From Bacteroidales bacterium (GTDB lineage: Bacteria; Bacteroidota; Bacteroidia; Bacteroidales; PUMT01): a stretch of 41,793 nucleotides of DNA. Position numbers and translations under genes: made by a program. Position 1 is the stretch's first letter, and each line of letters begins with the position of its first letter. The notes beneath the pieces were generated by a model that ran no database searches, had not been told where the DNA came from, and was given only the letters and a program-made list of their open reading frames with translations. Positions 902-7,426 of the stretch are shown piece after piece. The stretch lies in contig SLPB01000089.1 of assembly GCA_007132225.1 (NCBI GenBank), positions 1 to 41,793 of the forward strand, written 5' to 3'.

Positions 902-1588
902 CTATTTCTTTTTATTTGTTCTGACCTTATACTCATAAACCATAAGGGTAACCAGCATCATACTTAAAAAATAAAATGCATCCTCAACCGGAATGCTGCC
1001 AATGCGGAGGGAGAGATTTTCGCTGTTATCATAAGTTACTACCGGCAGGGCGGTCAAAAGGCCGTTTATAATATAAAAAGGAAGAAGGCCAACAAAATAC
1101 ATAAAGTAGAAGTGACTTAACCAGCCTTTATAAGATTTAATAACCAGCTGCCAGGATAAAAGTACGCAGCTCAAAGACATCACAATAAATGTGTATATTT
1201 TTTCTATATTACCCAGGGCGGTTATCAATGTTAAAATAGCCAGCAACACAGTCAGCACAAAGGCAAGTTTTGGAAAACAGAAACCTGGAAAAAAATATTT
1301 TAGAACTTCATATATGAAAACACAACAATAGGTGATAATTATAAAAAACATCCATTCTTCCAGGGGCAGGTCCAGCAGATAAATGCCTGTGATATACTGA
1401 TAATTGAACGACCATACCCCCATCCGGGTAAATGCTATGTCCCAGGGAATAAAAAGCATCATCATTACCAGTATACCGCTAAAAAGTTCCGGCCATTTTT
1501 TGTAATATGCAACCCTGTTTTCAAAACTTCTGATAAAGGGAATAATGAAACTTGCTGATAACAAAAACGTATATGTCCAATTATCCAT
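902..1588 (-). CDS. crtYcd: Lycopene cyclase, fused CrtYc-CrtYd type membrane protein
   Basis: Predicted to cyclise one or both psi ends of lycopene into beta rings. The 228-residue protein is almost wholly hydrophobic, with about six or seven membrane segments, and has two homologous halves. Each half carries the Pro-x-Glu signature of heterodimer-type cyclases: LPLEEWMFF at residues 74-82 and IPVEDAFYF at 199-207. A PWD motif at 48-50 precedes the first. This is the fused form of the crtYc/crtYd pair known from Bacteroidota and, as an N-terminal domain, from fungi. It is divergent from the ketolase gene, with 165 bp between them. Monocyclic versus bicyclic action cannot be read from sequence; the nearby CruF favours a monocyclic product. 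Confidence 0.87.
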   Translation of the reverse strand: MDNWTYTFLLSASFIIPFIRSFENRVAYYKKWPELFSGILVMMMLFIPWDIAFTRMGVWSFNYQYITGIYLLDLPLEEWMFFIIITYCCVFIYEVLKYFFPGFCFPKLAFVLTVLLAILTLITALGNIEKIYTFIVMSLSCVLLSWQLVIKSYKGWLSHFYFMYFVGLLPFYIINGLLTALPVVTYDNSENLSLRIGSIPVEDAFYFLSMMLVTLMVYEYKVRTNKKK

Positions 1589-1753
1589 AGTATAAAATTT
1601 CCCAGTAGTTTTTAAGATAACATTTCACCAGACTTTTTGTTTTCTCTCTTAAATTGGAAGTTGTTTATTTGTTTATACTTAACTTTAAGGTAGTAACTAA
1701 ATACTGATTAATTGAAAAAACCGTACAGGGAATTATAAATTAAATATTGCAAT

Positions 1754-2443
1754 ATGGGCATAATTCTTGCATTAATCATCATAGCCCTGTGGGGATTTCA
1801 TCTTGCCTATATGCTGTCATATGTGGCATTTTCTACAGGTAACCCATGGATGTATTTACACATAGTTATTCAGGCTTATCTGTATACGGGCTTATTTATA
1901 ACCGGACATGACGCCATGCATGGCGGTGTCGCCCGGAGCAAACAACTGAACAATGTGTTAGGTGCATCAGCAACATTTCTTTTTGCCGGCATGTCATACT
2001 GGCGGCTTAAGAAAAACCATAAAATGCATCACCGCTTTCCTGCAGCAAAGGAAGATCCGGACTTTTATACGGGATCACAAAATTTCTGGGTTTGGTGGGG
2101 AACATTTATGTGGAGATATCTTACCCTCGGGCAATTGATCATTATGGCAGCAGCCTTCAATGTTTTTGTACACATCTTTAGGATGGGCGAATTTAAAGTA
2201 CTAACCTACTGGGCCTTACCTGCCATACTGGGTACCTTGCAGCTGTTTTATTTCGGGGTTTACCGGCCTCATCGCTTGCCCCACCAGGAAAATATGATGC
2301 CGCACCGGGCACGATCGCAAAGTAAAAACCACTTATGGGCCATGCTGAGTTGCTACTTTTTTGGTTATCACTTTGAACATCATGAAAATCCGGGTATACC
2401 ATGGTGGAAGTTATATCAGTCAAAACAGCCCAATACTGAATAA
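1754..2443 (+). CDS. crtW: Beta-carotene 4-ketolase of the CrtW type (membrane di-iron desaturase fold)
   Basis: Predicted to add a keto group at C4 of a beta ring, using a membrane di-iron centre. The His boxes are HDAMH (52-56), HKMHH (89-93) and HFEHH (206-210, within YHFEHHENP). YRPHRLPH at 170-177 also fits CrtW rather than acyl desaturases. At 229 residues it is close to the usual CrtW length of about 240. It is the only carotenoid gene here on the plus strand, convergent with crtI (79 bp apart) and divergent from the cyclase. No Shine-Dalgarno sequence precedes the ATG. A generic fatty-acid desaturase is possible but less likely given motif spacing and neighbours. Confidence 0.82.
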   Translation: MGIILALIIIALWGFHLAYMLSYVAFSTGNPWMYLHIVIQAYLYTGLFITGHDAMHGGVARSKQLNNVLGASATFLFAGMSYWRLKKNHKMHHRFPAAKEDPDFYTGSQNFWVWWGTFMWRYLTLGQLIIMAAAFNVFVHIFRMGEFKVLTYWALPAILGTLQLFYFGVYRPHRLPHQENMMPHRARSQSKNHLWAMLSCYFFGYHFEHHENPGIPWWKLYQSKQPNTE

Positions 2444-2522
2444 CGCAAAATATAAATGGAGAAGCCGGAAAAAAAGTTTAAACACCGAATAAAGAATAAA
2501 CAAACATTTATTGTAAGGCCCA

Positions 2523-4001
2523 TTAACTGTTTGAAAATTTTTCAATTCTCCTGCAGGCCAGTTTTGAACTAATTATCGACATGGGAAGGCCAGCTCCGGG
2601 AACAGTTGAAGCACCGACATAAAAGACATTTTTAAATTTTTCATCAAAATTGGCAGGCCGGAATGCACCAATCTGATACATGTTGTGCGCCAGGCCCAAT
2701 CCGCTTCCCCTATGAAGATTGAACTGGTTTTGCCATTCCAGGGGTGTGTAAATTGTTTTTGAAATGACTTCAGGTTCAATATCTTTTTTTATACGTTTGG
2801 AAAAATCGGTTATTATACTATTCACTATGCTATCCTTATCACCCCAATCCGGTTTATAATGTAAATTCGGTACAGGACAGACAAATAGAAGGCTTTCGCA
2901 ACCTTCGGGGGCACATTCCAGGTTATGCTTTGAAAGCACATTTACGTAATAATAGGGCTTTTGCAATGAACCGGGATTTTGTTGAACATTGTTTGCATAC
3001 TCCTCAAAGTTGGTTCCCAGGTAATAATTGTGATGATTAACTTGCGGCAGCTTGCATTTTATACCCAGGTAAAATGTAAGGTATCCCATTGTCCATTTCA
3101 TTTTATCAAGCTTTGTTGCCGAATAGGCCTTTCGTTGAAAAATTCTGCTTCTAAAAACTGCAGCATCCGCATTGACCAGTACAACATCTGCAGTCCATTT
3201 TTTACCTGCGCTATCAACCAGGTGATCAAGTTTTTTATTATTCTCAATATAACTTACAATTTCAGTATTATAAGTGATTTTCACATCCTCCTTTTTCAAT
3301 TCATCAACTATTCCTTCAACTATTTTATACATTCCCCCTTCTACATTGAAATAACCATCATGCTGAAATTCGGTGTAGGATAGCAAGGTATAGATAGCCA
3401 TTGTGTCGAAGGGTGTCCGGCCAAGGAAAAAAGCTACCAGAGAAACTATTTGCTGCGCTTCTTTAGATGAGAAGTTTTGCATGACCTCCTGCCAGAAGCT
3501 CCTGAAAAGAACAGGAATATGCATGGGATTAACTCTCATCAAAGTGGTGAAATATGAAAAGCGGGAATCAAAATTATTCTTTATAACCAAATCTACCGTA
3601 TCATGAAATAATTTGCCTGATTTCCTGAGATACCTCACCATATTCGCTTCAAATTCAGGTTCAATATCCTTAAATTGTTCGGCAAGTTTTTTTATGTCCT
3701 TATGCATATGGAATATCTGCGGACTGTTGCTGAAGTTAACTGCATATAAGGGATCAAGTTCAAAAAATTTGAAAGGGATATCTATATTGCAATCTTTTGC
3801 AAATTCCTGAAATTCATATGACATACTGAAAAAACTGGGGCCTGTATCAAATGTAAAGCCATCTTTTTTTATCTGGTTCAATCTTCCACCAGCCCGGGAA
3901 TTTTTTTCAATAACCTCCACCTTAAAACCCTTTTTTGCCAGGCGCAATGCAGTTGCCAAACCACCAAGTCCGGCACCAACAACTAAAACCTTCTTATTCA
4001 T
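2523..4001 (-). CDS. crtI: Phytoene desaturase family (CrtI) FAD-dependent oxidoreductase
   Basis: Predicted to desaturate phytoene stepwise to lycopene. The FAD-binding Rossmann motif GAGLGGLATALRLAKKGF lies at about residues 9-26, followed by EVIEKNSRAGGR. The C-terminal signature VFYVGASTVPGAGLPM is the usual CrtI/CrtD ending, and 492 residues is normal. It is the last gene of the leftward carotenoid run, 109 bp after the glycosyltransferase, so it may have its own promoter. CrtI and the 3',4'-desaturase CrtD cannot be told apart by eye. As the only such gene beside crtB, CrtI is the simpler reading; a CrtD, if the pathway uses one, lies elsewhere. Confidence 0.9.
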   Translation of the reverse strand: MNKKVLVVGAGLGGLATALRLAKKGFKVEVIEKNSRAGGRLNQIKKDGFTFDTGPSFFSMSYEFQEFAKDCNIDIPFKFFELDPLYAVNFSNSPQIFHMHKDIKKLAEQFKDIEPEFEANMVRYLRKSGKLFHDTVDLVIKNNFDSRFSYFTTLMRVNPMHIPVLFRSFWQEVMQNFSSKEAQQIVSLVAFFLGRTPFDTMAIYTLLSYTEFQHDGYFNVEGGMYKIVEGIVDELKKEDVKITYNTEIVSYIENNKKLDHLVDSAGKKWTADVVLVNADAAVFRSRIFQRKAYSATKLDKMKWTMGYLTFYLGIKCKLPQVNHHNYYLGTNFEEYANNVQQNPGSLQKPYYYVNVLSKHNLECAPEGCESLLFVCPVPNLHYKPDWGDKDSIVNSIITDFSKRIKKDIEPEVISKTIYTPLEWQNQFNLHRGSGLGLAHNMYQIGAFRPANFDEKFKNVFYVGASTVPGAGLPMSIISSKLACRRIEKFSNS

Positions 4002-4110
4002 AGCATTAATTTATAATGTAGTTTACAATAGCTCTTTAACCCATAAAAAACAATTATCATTTTCCAGCGGCAACAGGTTTTTAACAATTAAAAAATCATG
4101 ATAAATTAAA

Positions 4111-5202
4111 CTATACTATTTTTCGTCCTTTCCACTGATGTTGCTTTTTGTACTTATTTATCAATGCCCTGTAAATAAAACAACCAATTGCTAATTGCTG
4201 TGGTATAAATAAAACCAGGTTCATAAGTATATTTTGGTTGCTGATAATTGAAATAATAATCCTTGTAATTGTTATAATCAGAACAAACAGGATAACCATA
4301 ATAATATCCAGGGTTAATAATACAGCAAGGATACCAAATGTTGTAATTATCCAGAAAAGCAATGCAGCTATGATGGAATTACTAAAAAAGGCGAAGATGT
4401 TTCTTGAAAAGCCATCTACCGCTTCGTTAAAACTTTCATACATTCTGCATTTTATATTATCATTACCAGCTATACAAGCAGTTTTCACACCTTTTTGTTT
4501 AAAATACCGGGCGATTTTTATGTCTTCAACCTTATTATCTTTAACTTTTTTGTGAGGGGATAGTTCGCGGTATCTTGCTGAATTAAAAAGCATGAACTGG
4601 CCATTTGCAGATGCCAGCGATTGGTAATTGGATTTACGGACTAGAACAAGCGGTAAAAGTGATAACAATATATAGTTCATAGCAGGTACGGCAATTCGCT
4701 CACCGATTGTAATCATTTTCTGAACGGGGAATATTGAAAGAAGTCCCAGTTTAAACTTTTCAGATAAAGTAACTGCCTTTATAATGACATCTTTCTTTAA
4801 CCTCACATCAGCATCTAAATAGAGAAGGTATTCTCCATTGGCAAATTTTGACAATATATAACAAGCGTAATTTTTACCTAACCAACCATCGGGCAATCCG
4901 CCGGATTTGATAAACCGGATCCGATTGTCAAGTTTTGAATGTTTATTAACGATTTCAGCAGTTTTATCAACTGAGAGATCATCAAAAACAATTATTTCAA
5001 TATTCTGATAATCCTGCTCATATAAATCACGCAAAATATTTGCAATGTTTTTCTCTTCATTTCGTGCCGGAATTAAAACGGAAACCAATCCTTTAAAAGC
5101 TGAGTTTTGCCCTGGAAATGATTGCCTGAATAAAATATTCACAAAAGCAATCAATAATTGAATCACAGAAAACATGAAACTTATATATGCCAGGTAAATC
5201 AC
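4111..5202 (-). CDS. GT2 glycosyltransferase, probable carotenoid glycosyltransferase (CruC/CruG-like)
   Basis: A membrane-bound family 2 glycosyltransferase, inferred to put a sugar on a hydroxylated carotenoid. Residues 1-24 form a membrane segment. The GT-A domain begins SVLIPARNEEKNI at 41, has DDLSVDKT at about 74-81, GWLGKNYA at 106-113 and the DXD-type metal motif DAD at 130-132. A later VEDI supplies the likely acidic base. The C-terminal third is hydrophobic with several membrane segments. Its ATG overlaps the acyltransferase stop by 4 bp (ATGA), so the two are probably coupled in translation. Green-sulfur CruC and cyanobacterial CruG are of this kind. The target is inferred from context; a lipid glycosyltransferase is the alternative. 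Confidence 0.78.
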   Translation of the reverse strand: MIYLAYISFMFSVIQLLIAFVNILFRQSFPGQNSAFKGLVSVLIPARNEEKNIANILRDLYEQDYQNIEIIVFDDLSVDKTAEIVNKHSKLDNRIRFIKSGGLPDGWLGKNYACYILSKFANGEYLLYLDADVRLKKDVIIKAVTLSEKFKLGLLSIFPVQKMITIGERIAVPAMNYILLSLLPLVLVRKSNYQSLASANGQFMLFNSARYRELSPHKKVKDNKVEDIKIARYFKQKGVKTACIAGNDNIKCRMYESFNEAVDGFSRNIFAFFSNSIIAALLFWIITTFGILAVLLTLDIIMVILFVLIITITRIIISIISNQNILMNLVLFIPQQLAIGCFIYRALINKYKKQHQWKGRKIV

Positions 5203-5828
5203 ATTTTGATCATTAATTGTTTTTGATTTTCAACGCATTGCCTGTAAAAGTGATTGTAATAGTGCTGAATATTTTTTATTGTAAAATCTGTTTCCGGAAA
5301 ATCTTTTATGTACATATATATTGAGGGTTTAGGATTTGAAAAATAATCGACCAGGTTTGCCATTAAAATGATTTGAATCTTTCCTTCCTTATTATTTACA
5401 ACCCGCTCAATTCCTTTTTCAAAATGAAAATCTTGCTGATGCATTGATTGTATTTCACCCTGCGGATAGAATAAAACAAGGTTCCTGCTGCAGCTAAGTA
5501 TTTCTTCAGTATAGTTCAGGGATTCAAGTATGCTTCTTGACTTTTTATTAACAGAAAAACCTCCGGTGTATCTGAAAAACCAGTACTTTCGCAGCTGTTC
5601 TTCCAGCATCATGAAATGAAATTTTCTTTTTAAAATCTTCATATTCAAATACATTGCCCAAAAACCATCCCACCAGCTTATATGATTTGACAGAATCAAA
5701 ACAGGTAGTTGGGATTTCTTAATATCTCCGATGATATAAACAGAGTCAAAATTCCTTTTGATTTTCCATTTAGCATATCCTTTAAAGAAATTATACAGGA
5801 AAAAATTATGATTTGATTTAAATATCAT
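5199..5828 (-). CDS. PlsC-type acyltransferase, probable carotenoid glycoside acyltransferase (CruD-like)
   Basis: A small lysophospholipid-acyltransferase-fold protein. The catalytic HX4D motif is NHISWWD (H49, D54), and YPQGE at 121-125 matches the acceptor-side block. At 209 residues it is shorter than most PlsC proteins. It overlaps CruF upstream and the glycosyltransferase downstream by 4 bp each, so it is deeply embedded in the carotenoid operon. In green sulfur bacteria the analogous CruC/CruD pair makes carotenoid glucoside esters. I infer that this enzyme esterifies the sugar on the carotenoid; a housekeeping role in phospholipid synthesis is less likely from context. Confidence 0.78.
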   Translation of the reverse strand: MIFKSNHNFFLYNFFKGYAKWKIKRNFDSVYIIGDIKKSQLPVLILSNHISWWDGFWAMYLNMKILKRKFHFMMLEEQLRKYWFFRYTGGFSVNKKSRSILESLNYTEEILSCSRNLVLFYPQGEIQSMHQQDFHFEKGIERVVNNKEGKIQIILMANLVDYFSNPKPSIYMYIKDFPETDFTIKNIQHYYNHFYRQCVENQKQLMIKM

Positions 5829-6499
5829 TTTATGATATCAAAAAAAATAAATAAACTGAGAAAAAAACAAAACTGGCAAACCAAAATTATCTCTGCCAAA
5901 CTGTTTTTAGTTTGAATATTAAAAACTTTAAATAAAGAATGAAAACCAAGTGCTAAAATAAACCATACAACATAGTTCTGCAGTGGCACCTGATTATTGC
6001 TCCAGTACCACATGTCCATTTTTGGTGCAACCTGCTCAAGAACAAGATCGTAAAGCAACATGATCAAAGAGGCTGCAATTATTCCCGGGAAACCCCTTAT
6101 GTTATATTTCCGGGTAACAGAAGAAGTCATGTAAACCAGTATCAGCCAATTAACCCCGATAATCAGGGGAGTATCAAAAACCTTGAAACCCAGGCCATTT
6201 CCATATTCATATTCACCGAAAATAAGCCCGGTACTTACGCCAAAAACTTCAATTGCATAGCCTATTAAGTAGATTAAAAATGAAACAATAACTATATTGG
6301 AATCATATCTGCCACGATGAAATAAGGTAAGAATTAACAAATTTAATATAAGTGTCGCGGGGATTAATTGTATAAATAATGGATTTGTATATGGCACTGC
6401 TATTCCGGCAACTCCTACTGCATAGAAAATAATGAAGAATACCTTGAATTTTTTATAGCCTGGTATTAGATATTTAATTTTGTTTAAGTGGTTCTGCAT
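5825..6499 (-). CDS. cruF: CruF-family carotenoid 1',2'-hydratase (DUF422 membrane protein)
   Basis: Predicted to hydrate the psi end of a carotenoid, giving a 1'-hydroxy group, as CruF does in myxol synthesis. The protein has about seven membrane helices. Family signatures are GEYEYGNGLGFKVFDTPLI near residue 95 and YDLVLEQVAPKMDMWYW near 150. A longer frame starts with TTG at 6505; I chose the ATG at 6499. The stop overlaps the acyltransferase start (ATGA), and crtB ends 31 bp upstream. CruF needs an uncyclised end, so its presence beside a cyclase implies a monocyclic carotenoid. Confidence 0.85.
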   Translation of the reverse strand: MQNHLNKIKYLIPGYKKFKVFFIIFYAVGVAGIAVPYTNPLFIQLIPATLILNLLILTLFHRGRYDSNIVIVSFLIYLIGYAIEVFGVSTGLIFGEYEYGNGLGFKVFDTPLIIGVNWLILVYMTSSVTRKYNIRGFPGIIAASLIMLLYDLVLEQVAPKMDMWYWSNNQVPLQNYVVWFILALGFHSLFKVFNIQTKNSLAEIILVCQFCFFLSLFIFFDIIK

Positions 6500-6530
6500 T
6501 GACAAGGTTTTCCCATTTCAGAATGGAATT

Positions 6531-7367
6531 TTAAATTTTGTTTATCCGGTACTTCAATAATGCTTTAAAAAGTAAAAATATCTTAAAAGCATCAGTAACA
6601 CGCATTCTTTTGTTCATTATCACCTTTGACGGTGTTTTTGATAATTTTCCGAGTAAATGCCTGTAATAAATAAAGGCGATTAACACGGCTAACTTTGATT
6701 TTCCCGGTAACCTTCTTATACCTTCTTTTGATTCCTCAAAATCCTTTTCAATATTTTCAATTAACTTATATTTTATTGATTCATTAAAAGTGTCTTGGTC
6801 AAAATCCGGAAAGTAGCTGCGGTCCAATTGTTTAATATCTGCCTTCAGGTCACGCAGGAAATTTACTTTCTGAAATGCTGAACCCAGTTTCATGGCAGAT
6901 TTTTCCAGCTCATGGTAAAGTTGGTCATTACCATTTACGAAAACTTTCAGACACATTAGTCCAACGACATTTGCAGAGCCATAAATGTATTCGTCGAGTT
7001 CCTTTGAATCTGAATAACTGTTTTTACACAAATCGGCCTTCATGCTTTTAAAAAAAGATTCTACCAGGTGCGGCGGGATGTTGTATTTTTTCACCGTTAA
7101 TGCAAAAGAGTTCAATACCGGGTTTACACTAATTCTGTTCGCCAGTGCTTCATTATAGTCACGTTCAAAATTTTTTAATACCAATTCCTGGTTTATGGTA
7201 TTAAAAGTATCTACGATCTCATCTGCAATCCTGACAAATCCATATATGCTGTAAACTGCCCGCCTCATTTCGGCCGGAAGAAAACTTACTGCGGTAGAAA
7301 ATGACGTGCTGTACTTATGGGTAATAAGTTTACTGGTTTTAAAAGATATCTCATTATAAAGGTCCAT
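6531..7367 (-). CDS. crtB: Phytoene synthase
   Basis: Condenses two geranylgeranyl diphosphates into phytoene, the committed carotenoid step. The first Asp-rich motif is DEIVD at 49-53 and the second DLKAD at 173-177, followed by DRSYFP. YIYGSANVVGLM at about 127-138 and KYSTSFSTA near the start are also typical. The length, 278 residues, fits the squalene/phytoene synthase family. I chose ATG at 7367; a GTG one codon upstream (7370) is possible. It is the first gene of the leftward cluster. A geranylgeranyl diphosphate synthase is not in the window. Confidence 0.93.
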   Translation of the reverse strand: MDLYNEISFKTSKLITHKYSTSFSTAVSFLPAEMRRAVYSIYGFVRIADEIVDTFNTINQELVLKNFERDYNEALANRISVNPVLNSFALTVKKYNIPPHLVESFFKSMKADLCKNSYSDSKELDEYIYGSANVVGLMCLKVFVNGNDQLYHELEKSAMKLGSAFQKVNFLRDLKADIKQLDRSYFPDFDQDTFNESIKYKLIENIEKDFEESKEGIRRLPGKSKLAVLIAFIYYRHLLGKLSKTPSKVIMNKRMRVTDAFKIFLLFKALLKYRINKI

Positions 7368-7426
7368 CACGGCATTTCAGCATTAAACATTTTTTAAAAA
7401 TACAAACAATTTGCATTTAAAAAAAA

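Follow-up and report, generated by a model that had tools for sequence, protein, structure and literature searches.

A Bacteroidales bacterium (GTDB lineage Bacteria; Bacteroidota; Bacteroidia; Bacteroidales; PUMT01) carries seven carotenoid genes at positions 902-7370 of contig SLPB01000089.1 (GenBank assembly GCA_007132225.1), which raise the question of what pigment they encode and how they came to lie in this genome. The window (the whole stretch of DNA analysed, 41,793 nucleotides) is contig 6 of G000, a metagenome-assembled genome (MAG) of 3.32 Mb in 181 contigs, 95.9% complete and with an estimated contamination of 2.65%. It is probable, in our view, that the locus is a transferred carotenoid acyl-glycoside cluster which replaced the native pathway of a Bacteroidales genus and makes a 4-keto-1'-hydroxy-gamma-carotene hexoside ester. 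The seven genes are present, no CrtD or rhodopsin gene was found in the assembly, the cruF-plsC-GT2 run is conserved among relatives, and four native genes are gone from their usual place: the old G000 locus keeps proC and a gene encoding a protein designated X but lacks the crtD-cruF-plsC-GT2 genes found in 8/8 native-type loci. The locus would thus illustrate the exchange of an entire pigment pathway within a single genus, one double bond being predicted to be lost. A sequence-only reading of the window had predicted a salinixanthin-like pigment, and had reached neither the replacement nature of the cluster nor the commonly present partner gene, X, that is missing from it.

Gene set and predicted pigment

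All seven genes named by that reading were found as intact open reading frames, at or within one codon of the limits it gave (starts were set mechanically). The minus strand carries crtB-cruF-plsC-GT2-crtI and crtYcd, with crtW on the plus strand between crtI and crtYcd. The phytoene synthase CrtB (6531-7370; 279 amino acids) was assigned by PF00494 (159.6 bits, cut-off 26; the top NCBIfam model, HpnD, scored below its cut-off) and is 79% identical to CrtB of the same-genus genome G012. The CruF-type carotenoid 1,2-hydratase (5825-6505; 226 amino acids) was assigned by PF04240 (87.8 bits, cut-off 25), with TIGR03460 at 69.6 bits, below its cut-off of 154.7. The PlsC-like acyltransferase, a candidate for sugar acylation (5199-5828; 209 amino acids), was recognised by PF01553 (32.5 bits, cut-off 23) and by a hidden Markov model (HMM) of the cluster proteins, and contains NHISWWD, which we take to be the HX4D motif. 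The candidate carotenoid glycosyltransferase GT2 (4111-5202; 363 amino acids) rests on PF00535 (76.1 bits, cut-off 23.3), on the conserved gene order and on a tree; its two top NCBIfam models, CruG NF045692 (119.7 bits) and HpnB TIGR03469 (105.4 bits), fail their cut-offs of 600 and 379. CrtI (2523-4001; 492 amino acids), a phytoene desaturase and not a CrtD, matches TIGR02734 (334.1 bits, cut-off 238.1). CrtYcd (902-1588; 228 amino acids) is a fused heterodimeric-type lycopene cyclase, matched in two stretches each by PF18916 (107.8 bits, cut-off 27) and TIGR03462 (104.5 bits, cut-off 39.4), and a single-peptide CrtYcd monocyclase is already known (PMC2889829). The CrtW-type 4-ketolase (1754-2443, plus strand; 229 amino acids) carries the histidine boxes HDAMH, HKMHH and HFEHH, as read from its sequence, and its best model, NF045690, gave 224.6 bits, below the cut-off of 350.

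From these assignments we infer each catalytic step, together with the nature of the sugar and of the acyl group. CrtB and CrtI would produce lycopene, of which CrtYcd would close one end to yield gamma-carotene; CruF would hydrate the open end, giving a 1'-hydroxyl group, and CrtW would add a 4-keto group; GT2 would attach a hexose to the hydroxyl made by CruF, and the PlsC-like enzyme would esterify the sugar. The predicted product, a red 4-keto-1'-hydroxy-1',2'-dihydro-gamma-carotene hexoside ester, would lack the 3',4' double bond of salinixanthin and would act in membrane protection rather than as a rhodopsin antenna. Calculated masses are 568.43 for 4-keto-1'-OH-gamma-carotene (C40H56O2), 730.48 for its hexoside (C46H66O7) and 954.69 for the ester with a C15:0 acyl group (C61H94O8), compared with 952.68 (C61H92O8) for a salinixanthin-type product; a hydroxylated, keto-free pigment of Rhodothermus marinus also has the formula C61H94O8 (PMC5822342). 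Two polyprenyl synthases are encoded elsewhere in G000 and are a possible source of geranylgeranyl pyrophosphate.

Several observations weigh against this interpretation. The pigment and enzymes of this organism are predictions from its genes, and CrtW, GT2, the PlsC-like protein and CruF all score below the NCBIfam equivalog cut-offs. The affinities of CrtYcd and CrtW differ from those of the remaining genes and crtW is divergent, so that the two may be expressed apart from the cluster. Of 50 related loci with enough flanking sequence on either side, 26 showed no CrtYcd (e.g. L079, L085, L101 and L145), which suggests that many Bacteroidales relatives would make acyclic (rhodopin-type) glycoside esters, unless a cyclase is encoded elsewhere. 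The cruF-plsC-GT2 module is not universal (L139 and L147 are without plsC and GT2), and, with the assembly 96% complete, a CrtD or rhodopsin gene could sit in the missing part.

That only one end of lycopene would be cyclised is argued from competition by CruF. The alternative that survives best, which we nevertheless regard as rather unlikely, is that the organism makes mainly bicyclic keto-carotenoids (canthaxanthin, echinenone), leaving CruF, GT2 and PlsC to work on a small pool of acyclic or monocyclic carotenoids. The Nonlabens cyclase CrtY alone does make mostly beta-carotene, and in the window crtYcd and crtW are not part of the cruF run and differ from it in their affinities; with CruF, however, the same CrtY gives mainly 1'-OH-gamma-carotene (PMC11855829), and the cruF-plsC-GT2 module would be largely idle if bicyclic products prevailed.

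The sequence-only reading had seen neither a 3',4'-desaturase (CrtD) nor a rhodopsin gene in the window, and both observations extend to the assembly. The window CrtI is the only G000 protein above the crtI_fam cut-off, the next match in this 95.9% complete assembly being 52.9 bits over 72 N-terminal positions, and PF01036 (rhodopsin) has no match in G000. Trees were constructed for GT2, CrtYcd and CrtI, all of the quick type and from chosen rows (52, 22 and 60, respectively; supports below are from these trees). The possibility that the window CrtI is a hidden 3,4-desaturase was rejected on its tree position, in a clade (support 100) with CrtIs of G039, G035 and L151 which coexist with a separate CrtD, and on its scores of 211.7 bits against the CrtD model NF042421 (cut-off 500) and 326.4 bits against CrtID (cut-off 640). 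The same CrtD model gave 570.5 bits, above its cut-off, with the CrtD of the native genus (L149, on the same contig as G007), the only same-genus CrtD scored, and 607.2 bits with the L044 CrtD of G028, from another family. The native CrtI L062 exceeds the NCBIfam CrtID cut-off (708.6 against 640 bits); it may be that the label is a loose one, or that the native genus possesses two enzymes of this kind.

The description "salinixanthin-like" is accordingly not supported, since no 3',4'-desaturase was found in a 96%-complete genome even though the native genus cluster has a CrtD above the cut-off, and the proposed link to a xanthorhodopsin antenna fell with the failure to find a rhodopsin in the same genome. 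Among 41 genomes (G000 and 40 relatives) the single PF01036 match was in G010, a native-type genome of the same genus (L008 1423-2262, G010 contig 359); its third-helix motif reads NDQ, which we take to be sodium-pump-like. The antenna idea was rejected on these grounds. A true salinixanthin-type (3',4'-didehydro) pigment serving as a rhodopsin antenna, with its CrtD missed, thus appears improbable: CrtW, CruF, GT2 and the acyltransferase do fit the modifications of salinixanthin, and Rhodothermus marinus makes salinixanthin though no CrtD has been found unequivocally (PMC5822342), so that gene absence is an imperfect test for 3',4'-desaturation, but G000 has no CrtD-family protein above the cut-off and no rhodopsin, and the native CrtD is gone together with its neighbours from a conserved place.

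The cruF-plsC-GT2 run across relatives and phyla

Related loci were taken as the best 80 of 376 relatives in a profile scan of contigs around CruF (the duplicate records L073, L081, L088, L096, L098 and L149 were left out of the trees and kept in these counts). The next HMM-recognised genes after CruF were PlsC and then GT2 in 73 of the 80 loci, with X next in 62 of those 73 and CrtI after X in 59. The seven exceptions comprised L151, where crtW is inserted after cruF, L120 (without PlsC), L141 (without GT2), L115 and L133, in which X follows CruF directly with no PlsC or GT2, and L139 and L147, which read crtB-cruF-crtI and are without plsC, GT2 and X. On 19 contigs of relatives around CruF (L029-L047) the order cruF, plsC, GT2 was kept in every case and the genes were directly consecutive in 17, in one of which (L047) a contig end cuts CruF; in L044 and L046 crtW separates cruF from plsC, and L044 also has an opposite-strand gene before GT2. 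Of the 295 genomes examined from the order, 71 had a CruF relative (E 1e-20). Culturable relatives with the module include Maribellus, Draconibacterium and Balneicella.

GT2 also matched 54 plasmid records, of which ten were inspected. Plasmids of Niallia and Cytobacillus have the same cruF-plsC-GT2 order, plsC-GT2 adjoins crt genes in records of Microvirga, Palleronia, Azospirillum, Indioceanicola, Gluconobacter and Thermus, and in D. deserti a doxX gene lies between plsC and GT2; the GT2 of the tenth record, from Acaryochloris, is without such carotenoid or plsC company. A published metabolic model names genes CruD and CruC (PMC4021367), and judging by gene order the Thermus plsC-GT2 pair probably corresponds to these.

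A profile of the GT2s of nine clusters gave 168-280 bits on the ten plasmid GT2s versus 26-58 on five proteins from G000 itself. The cluster PlsC model gave 107-108 bits on two acyltransferases of Bacillota carotenoid clusters and 20-44 on seven other carotenoid-linked ones, and did not match the other four PF01553 proteins of G000 at E 1e-3. The GT2 tree separated the cluster and carotenoid-linked GT2s from the paralogs of G000 itself with a support of 96, and long branches were flagged in it. Its rows include L052, the G000 copy and hence a duplicate of the window GT2, and L050, a paralog matched weakly at 26 bits; the group termed carotenoid-linked also holds the GT2 of Acaryochloris, which has no such linkage. 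These data support the view that cruF-plsC-GT2 is a transferable unit for carotenoid acyl-glycosylation which several phyla have in common, and the earlier prediction of a keto-carotenoid acyl glycoside gained from the linkage across phyla and from the far lower similarity of the PlsC and GT2 paralogs in the same genome.

It seems very unlikely that GT2 and the PlsC-like enzyme make another glycolipid (a phospholipid, hopanoid or envelope product) and merely share the operon. GT2 does score 105 bits with the hopanoid-associated HpnB model, and L115, L133, L139 and L147 keep other carotenoid genes without plsC and GT2; set against this are the repeated linkage to carotenoid genes across phyla, the exchange of the triplet as a unit within the genus, and the Planococcus cluster, where CruF and then the adjacent glycosyltransferase were shown in E. 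coli to hydrate and glucosylate a C30 carotenoid and an acyltransferase gene adjoins (PMC8502411). A grouping of GT2 and the acyltransferase with phospholipid or hopanoid enzymes, which the sequence-only reading had said would count against its proposal, was not found in the GT2 tree or the PlsC profile scores, HpnB being compared through NCBIfam scores only.

Some related clusters had further features. L108 and L142, records named as Ignavibacteria or Ignavibacteriales MAGs, show the same cruF-plsC-GT2-crtI run (L142 has X as well), a sign either of wider transfer or of misbinning. In G030 (L033 3788-4315, on the same contig as the Balneicella locus L096) a Blc-type lipocalin gene (PF08212) lies between idi and cruF and is possibly another carrier of hydrophobic molecules. 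A pyrimidine-dimer glycosylase-like gene lies between crtB and cruF in G012 (L029 7280-7714, confirmed by Pfam) and beside crtYcd in G009 (L165 3607-4038, judged by a similar N-terminus), perhaps reflecting a link to light damage or a trace of shuffling. Among the open-licence papers listed by searches on these topics, none was recognised as describing X or the cruF-plsC-GT2 module in Bacteroidales.

Native and window-type genes within the genus

Thirteen genomes of the genus, G000 included, were compared. In eight of them, termed native-type (G001, G002, G004, G005, G007, G008, G010 and G011), crtD-cruF-plsC-GT2-X lies beside proC. A second native locus, crtI-crtB-idi-crtYcd beside a gene which we take to be tilS-like from its SGGxDS motif, was found in G002, G007, G008 and G011 (a contig end cuts crtI in the last) and is truncated at contig ends in G004 and G010. 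G005 has its other desaturase away from any operon of this kind and in a separate CrtI clade, and G001 has no other desaturase above the cut-off among those listed. In G000 the upstream neighbours of proC are collinear with the native loci and X stands alone 412 bp after proC (L055 8493-9329, contig 47), its product being 63-72% identical to the eight native X proteins. In G006 proC adjoins X across a 181-bp gap with no module there, and in G003 (74% complete) no GT2 is present in the approximately 680 bp before X and a window-type crtI lies on another contig. No significant relics of the four native genes were found between proC and X in G000 or G006. Five genomes (G000, G003, G006, G009 and G012) have a window-type crtI and no other family member above the cut-off, that of G006 being cut by a contig end and hence itself below it. 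Each has one X, inside the cluster in G009 and G012 and elsewhere in G000, G003 and G006 (G006 has one further weak match of 43 bits). The preference for deletion of the native genes is based on parsimony, as X follows GT2 in most clusters.

The window CrtI is 85% identical to that of G012 and 80% to that of G038, from another family, versus 25-28% to the native CrtIs. In the GT2 tree the native clade (support 99) is separate from the window's GT2, and in both the GT2 and the CrtI tree the window's neighbour is G012, with Paludibacter L074 and G038 close by; the GT2 and CrtI of G009 branch elsewhere, so that more than one transfer is possible. CrtYcd of the window groups with that of G009 (73% identity, support 95) and falls neither in the native-genus clade nor in the one formed by cluster-linked CrtYcd proteins, and CrtW is 79% identical to that of G009, 57% to G028, 48% to G035 and 39-45% to the CrtWs of native-type genomes of the same genus. 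The same divergent crtYcd/crtW pair is present on G009 contig 15, representing a third affinity. Taken together, the gene content and trees suggest that the whole pigment gene set was replaced by a foreign one and the native CrtD lost, and this is the direction of replacement that we infer.

Ffh, encoded on the window contig, shares 86-89% identity with its counterparts in nine genomes of the genus, 81% with a G006 fragment and 66-78% with those outside the genus (it was not found in G003 or G005 at the limit used); from this genus-like identity the contig is judged to belong to the genus. Misbinning of the window contig, by which the replacement would mix two organisms, is thus highly improbable, for although the MAG has 181 contigs and 2.65% contamination, with the cluster and X on different contigs, Ffh is genus-like and both G006 (proC and X with no module in the gap) and G003 (window-type crtI on one contig, X elsewhere with no GT2 before it) show the same separation. 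The uncultured bacterium is a relative of soda-lake species; three Bacteroidales MAGs of the genus (G006, G007 and G012) are labelled CSSed16, a form that matches CSSed10 and CSSed11, sediment samples of a soda-lake study in which Cock Soda Lake is named (PMC6146748).

The one native gene kept beside proC encodes X, of approximately 240-260 amino acids with a hydrophobic N-terminus which, by eye, is signal-peptide-like, so that X is apparently exported. Its start overlaps the end of GT2 in relatives. The window cluster is without X; where most related clusters have it, 109 bp lie between the GT2 stop and the CrtI start (4002-4110, minus strand). Nine codons at 4135-4106 (GTG start, MERTKNSIV) are open, overlap the GT2 end and agree with the usual X start before a stop is reached, a match which may reflect only the conserved GT2 end. 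In 295 genomes of the order X was found in 83 (E 1e-30), CruF in 71 and both in 55, and X was present in 55/71 CruF genomes compared with 28/224 others (Fisher P = 1.7e-24, not corrected for relatedness); the two lay within 5 kb on one contig in 46 of the 55. Conversely, CrtI without X was seen in 11 of the 80 loci, X without CruF in 28 of 83 genomes and CruF without X in 16 of 71. A strict tie of X to the sugar was rejected, as X comes right after CruF in L115 and L133, with PlsC and GT2 missing, and G038, a 99% complete genome, carries the module but lacks X.

By its sequence X is a member of no named family beyond generic tetratricopeptide repeat (TPR) proteins. Pfam TPR models scored above the cut-off in two of five X proteins and below it in three, and three of three gave nothing in NCBIfam at E 1e-5. 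Membership of the TatT/TRAP T-component family was rejected (PF16811 at 14-17 bits in three of five, no match in two; gathering score 26.5). An AlphaFold2 model from 43 aligned sequences, the first being L149, is all helical (pLDDT 94.5). Its fold matches were the Thermus TPR protein TTC0263 (Z 19.2), HusA (Z 19.0; 2.6 A over 191 residues; 17% identity), PTPIP51 (18.0), a TPAT transporter (17.8), TatT (16.8) and 7t1s, a "bacterial sterol transporter" which we take to be BstC (16.2; 12% identity). Shape alone can give helical repeats Z values near 13, and functionally unrelated TPR proteins gave 14-18 here, so that HusA stands out only slightly; similarly, a sequence profile of X matched designed TPR proteins best among solved structures (E 1.7e-32, against 1.6e-8 for HusA chain 6bqs), and generic TPR similarity therefore explains part of the HusA match. 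X thus resembles HusA and TPR proteins, a likeness of fold that does not in itself indicate function. HusA binds porphyrins in a hydrophobic groove (PMC6173696) and BstC binds sterols (PMC10942540). On the basis of gene linkage, apparent export and predicted fold we tentatively propose, as an idea that is at present doubtful, that X is a dedicated carrier of hydroxylated or acyl-glycosyl carotenoids across the periplasm to the outer membrane, usable by either version of the pathway and hence the one part not replaced. As a commonly linked unnamed partner, X could help to explain the exit of bulky carotenoid glycolipids from the inner membrane and, if the proposal is true, would be to carotenoids what HusA is to haem and BstC to sterols.

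Comparison with known systems

Chloroflexus, which carries cruF, cruC and cruD and a crtO ketolase, makes 1'-OH-gamma-carotene glucoside esters (PMC4155588). Its pathway (crtB, crtI, crtY, cruF, cruC, cruD) would share with that of the window a monocyclic pigment, a CruF hydroxyl, a glucoside and an acyl ester, and both have a ketolase; the window belongs to another taxon and has CrtYcd in place of CrtY and CrtW in place of CrtO, and its ketone is predicted on the glycosylated pigment. The Chloroflexus-type set of cyclase, CruF, carotenoid glycosyltransferase and acyltransferase is present, as judged by family models, gene order, the cluster profiles and the GT2 tree. With the salinixanthin of Salinibacter ruber and R. 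marinus the predicted pigment would share a monocyclic 4-keto carotenoid acyl glucoside, and genes for the 4-ketolase and 1',2'-hydratase are present; in contrast, neither the 3',4'-desaturase nor the rhodopsin of an antenna system was found. R. marinus itself was assigned CrtO and CruC/CruD-type genes, with no recognised CruF or CrtC homologue (PMC5822342).

The C30 cluster of Planococcus and other Bacillota (CrtM, CrtN, CruF, glycosyltransferase, acyltransferase), of which the Niallia and Cytobacillus plasmids have the same cruF-plsC-GT2 run, differs in its C30 backbone and in having no cyclase and no ketolase. Flexixanthin (Algoriphagus) and myxol (Nonlabens) are published monocyclic Bacteroidota pathways with CruF and CrtD (PMC10784355, PMC11855829); their clusters share CrtB, CrtI, a cyclase and CruF with the window, Algoriphagus also CrtYcd and CrtW, but have CrtD and CrtZ, and the words "glycosyl" and "acyltransferase" are absent from the main text of both papers. 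X shares with HusA and BstC/TatT a helical TPR-like fold at low identity, and differs in that its genes lie mostly in carotenoid clusters. The pathway itself is a variant on known carotenoid glycoside ester routes; the kept lone X is the most novel lead.

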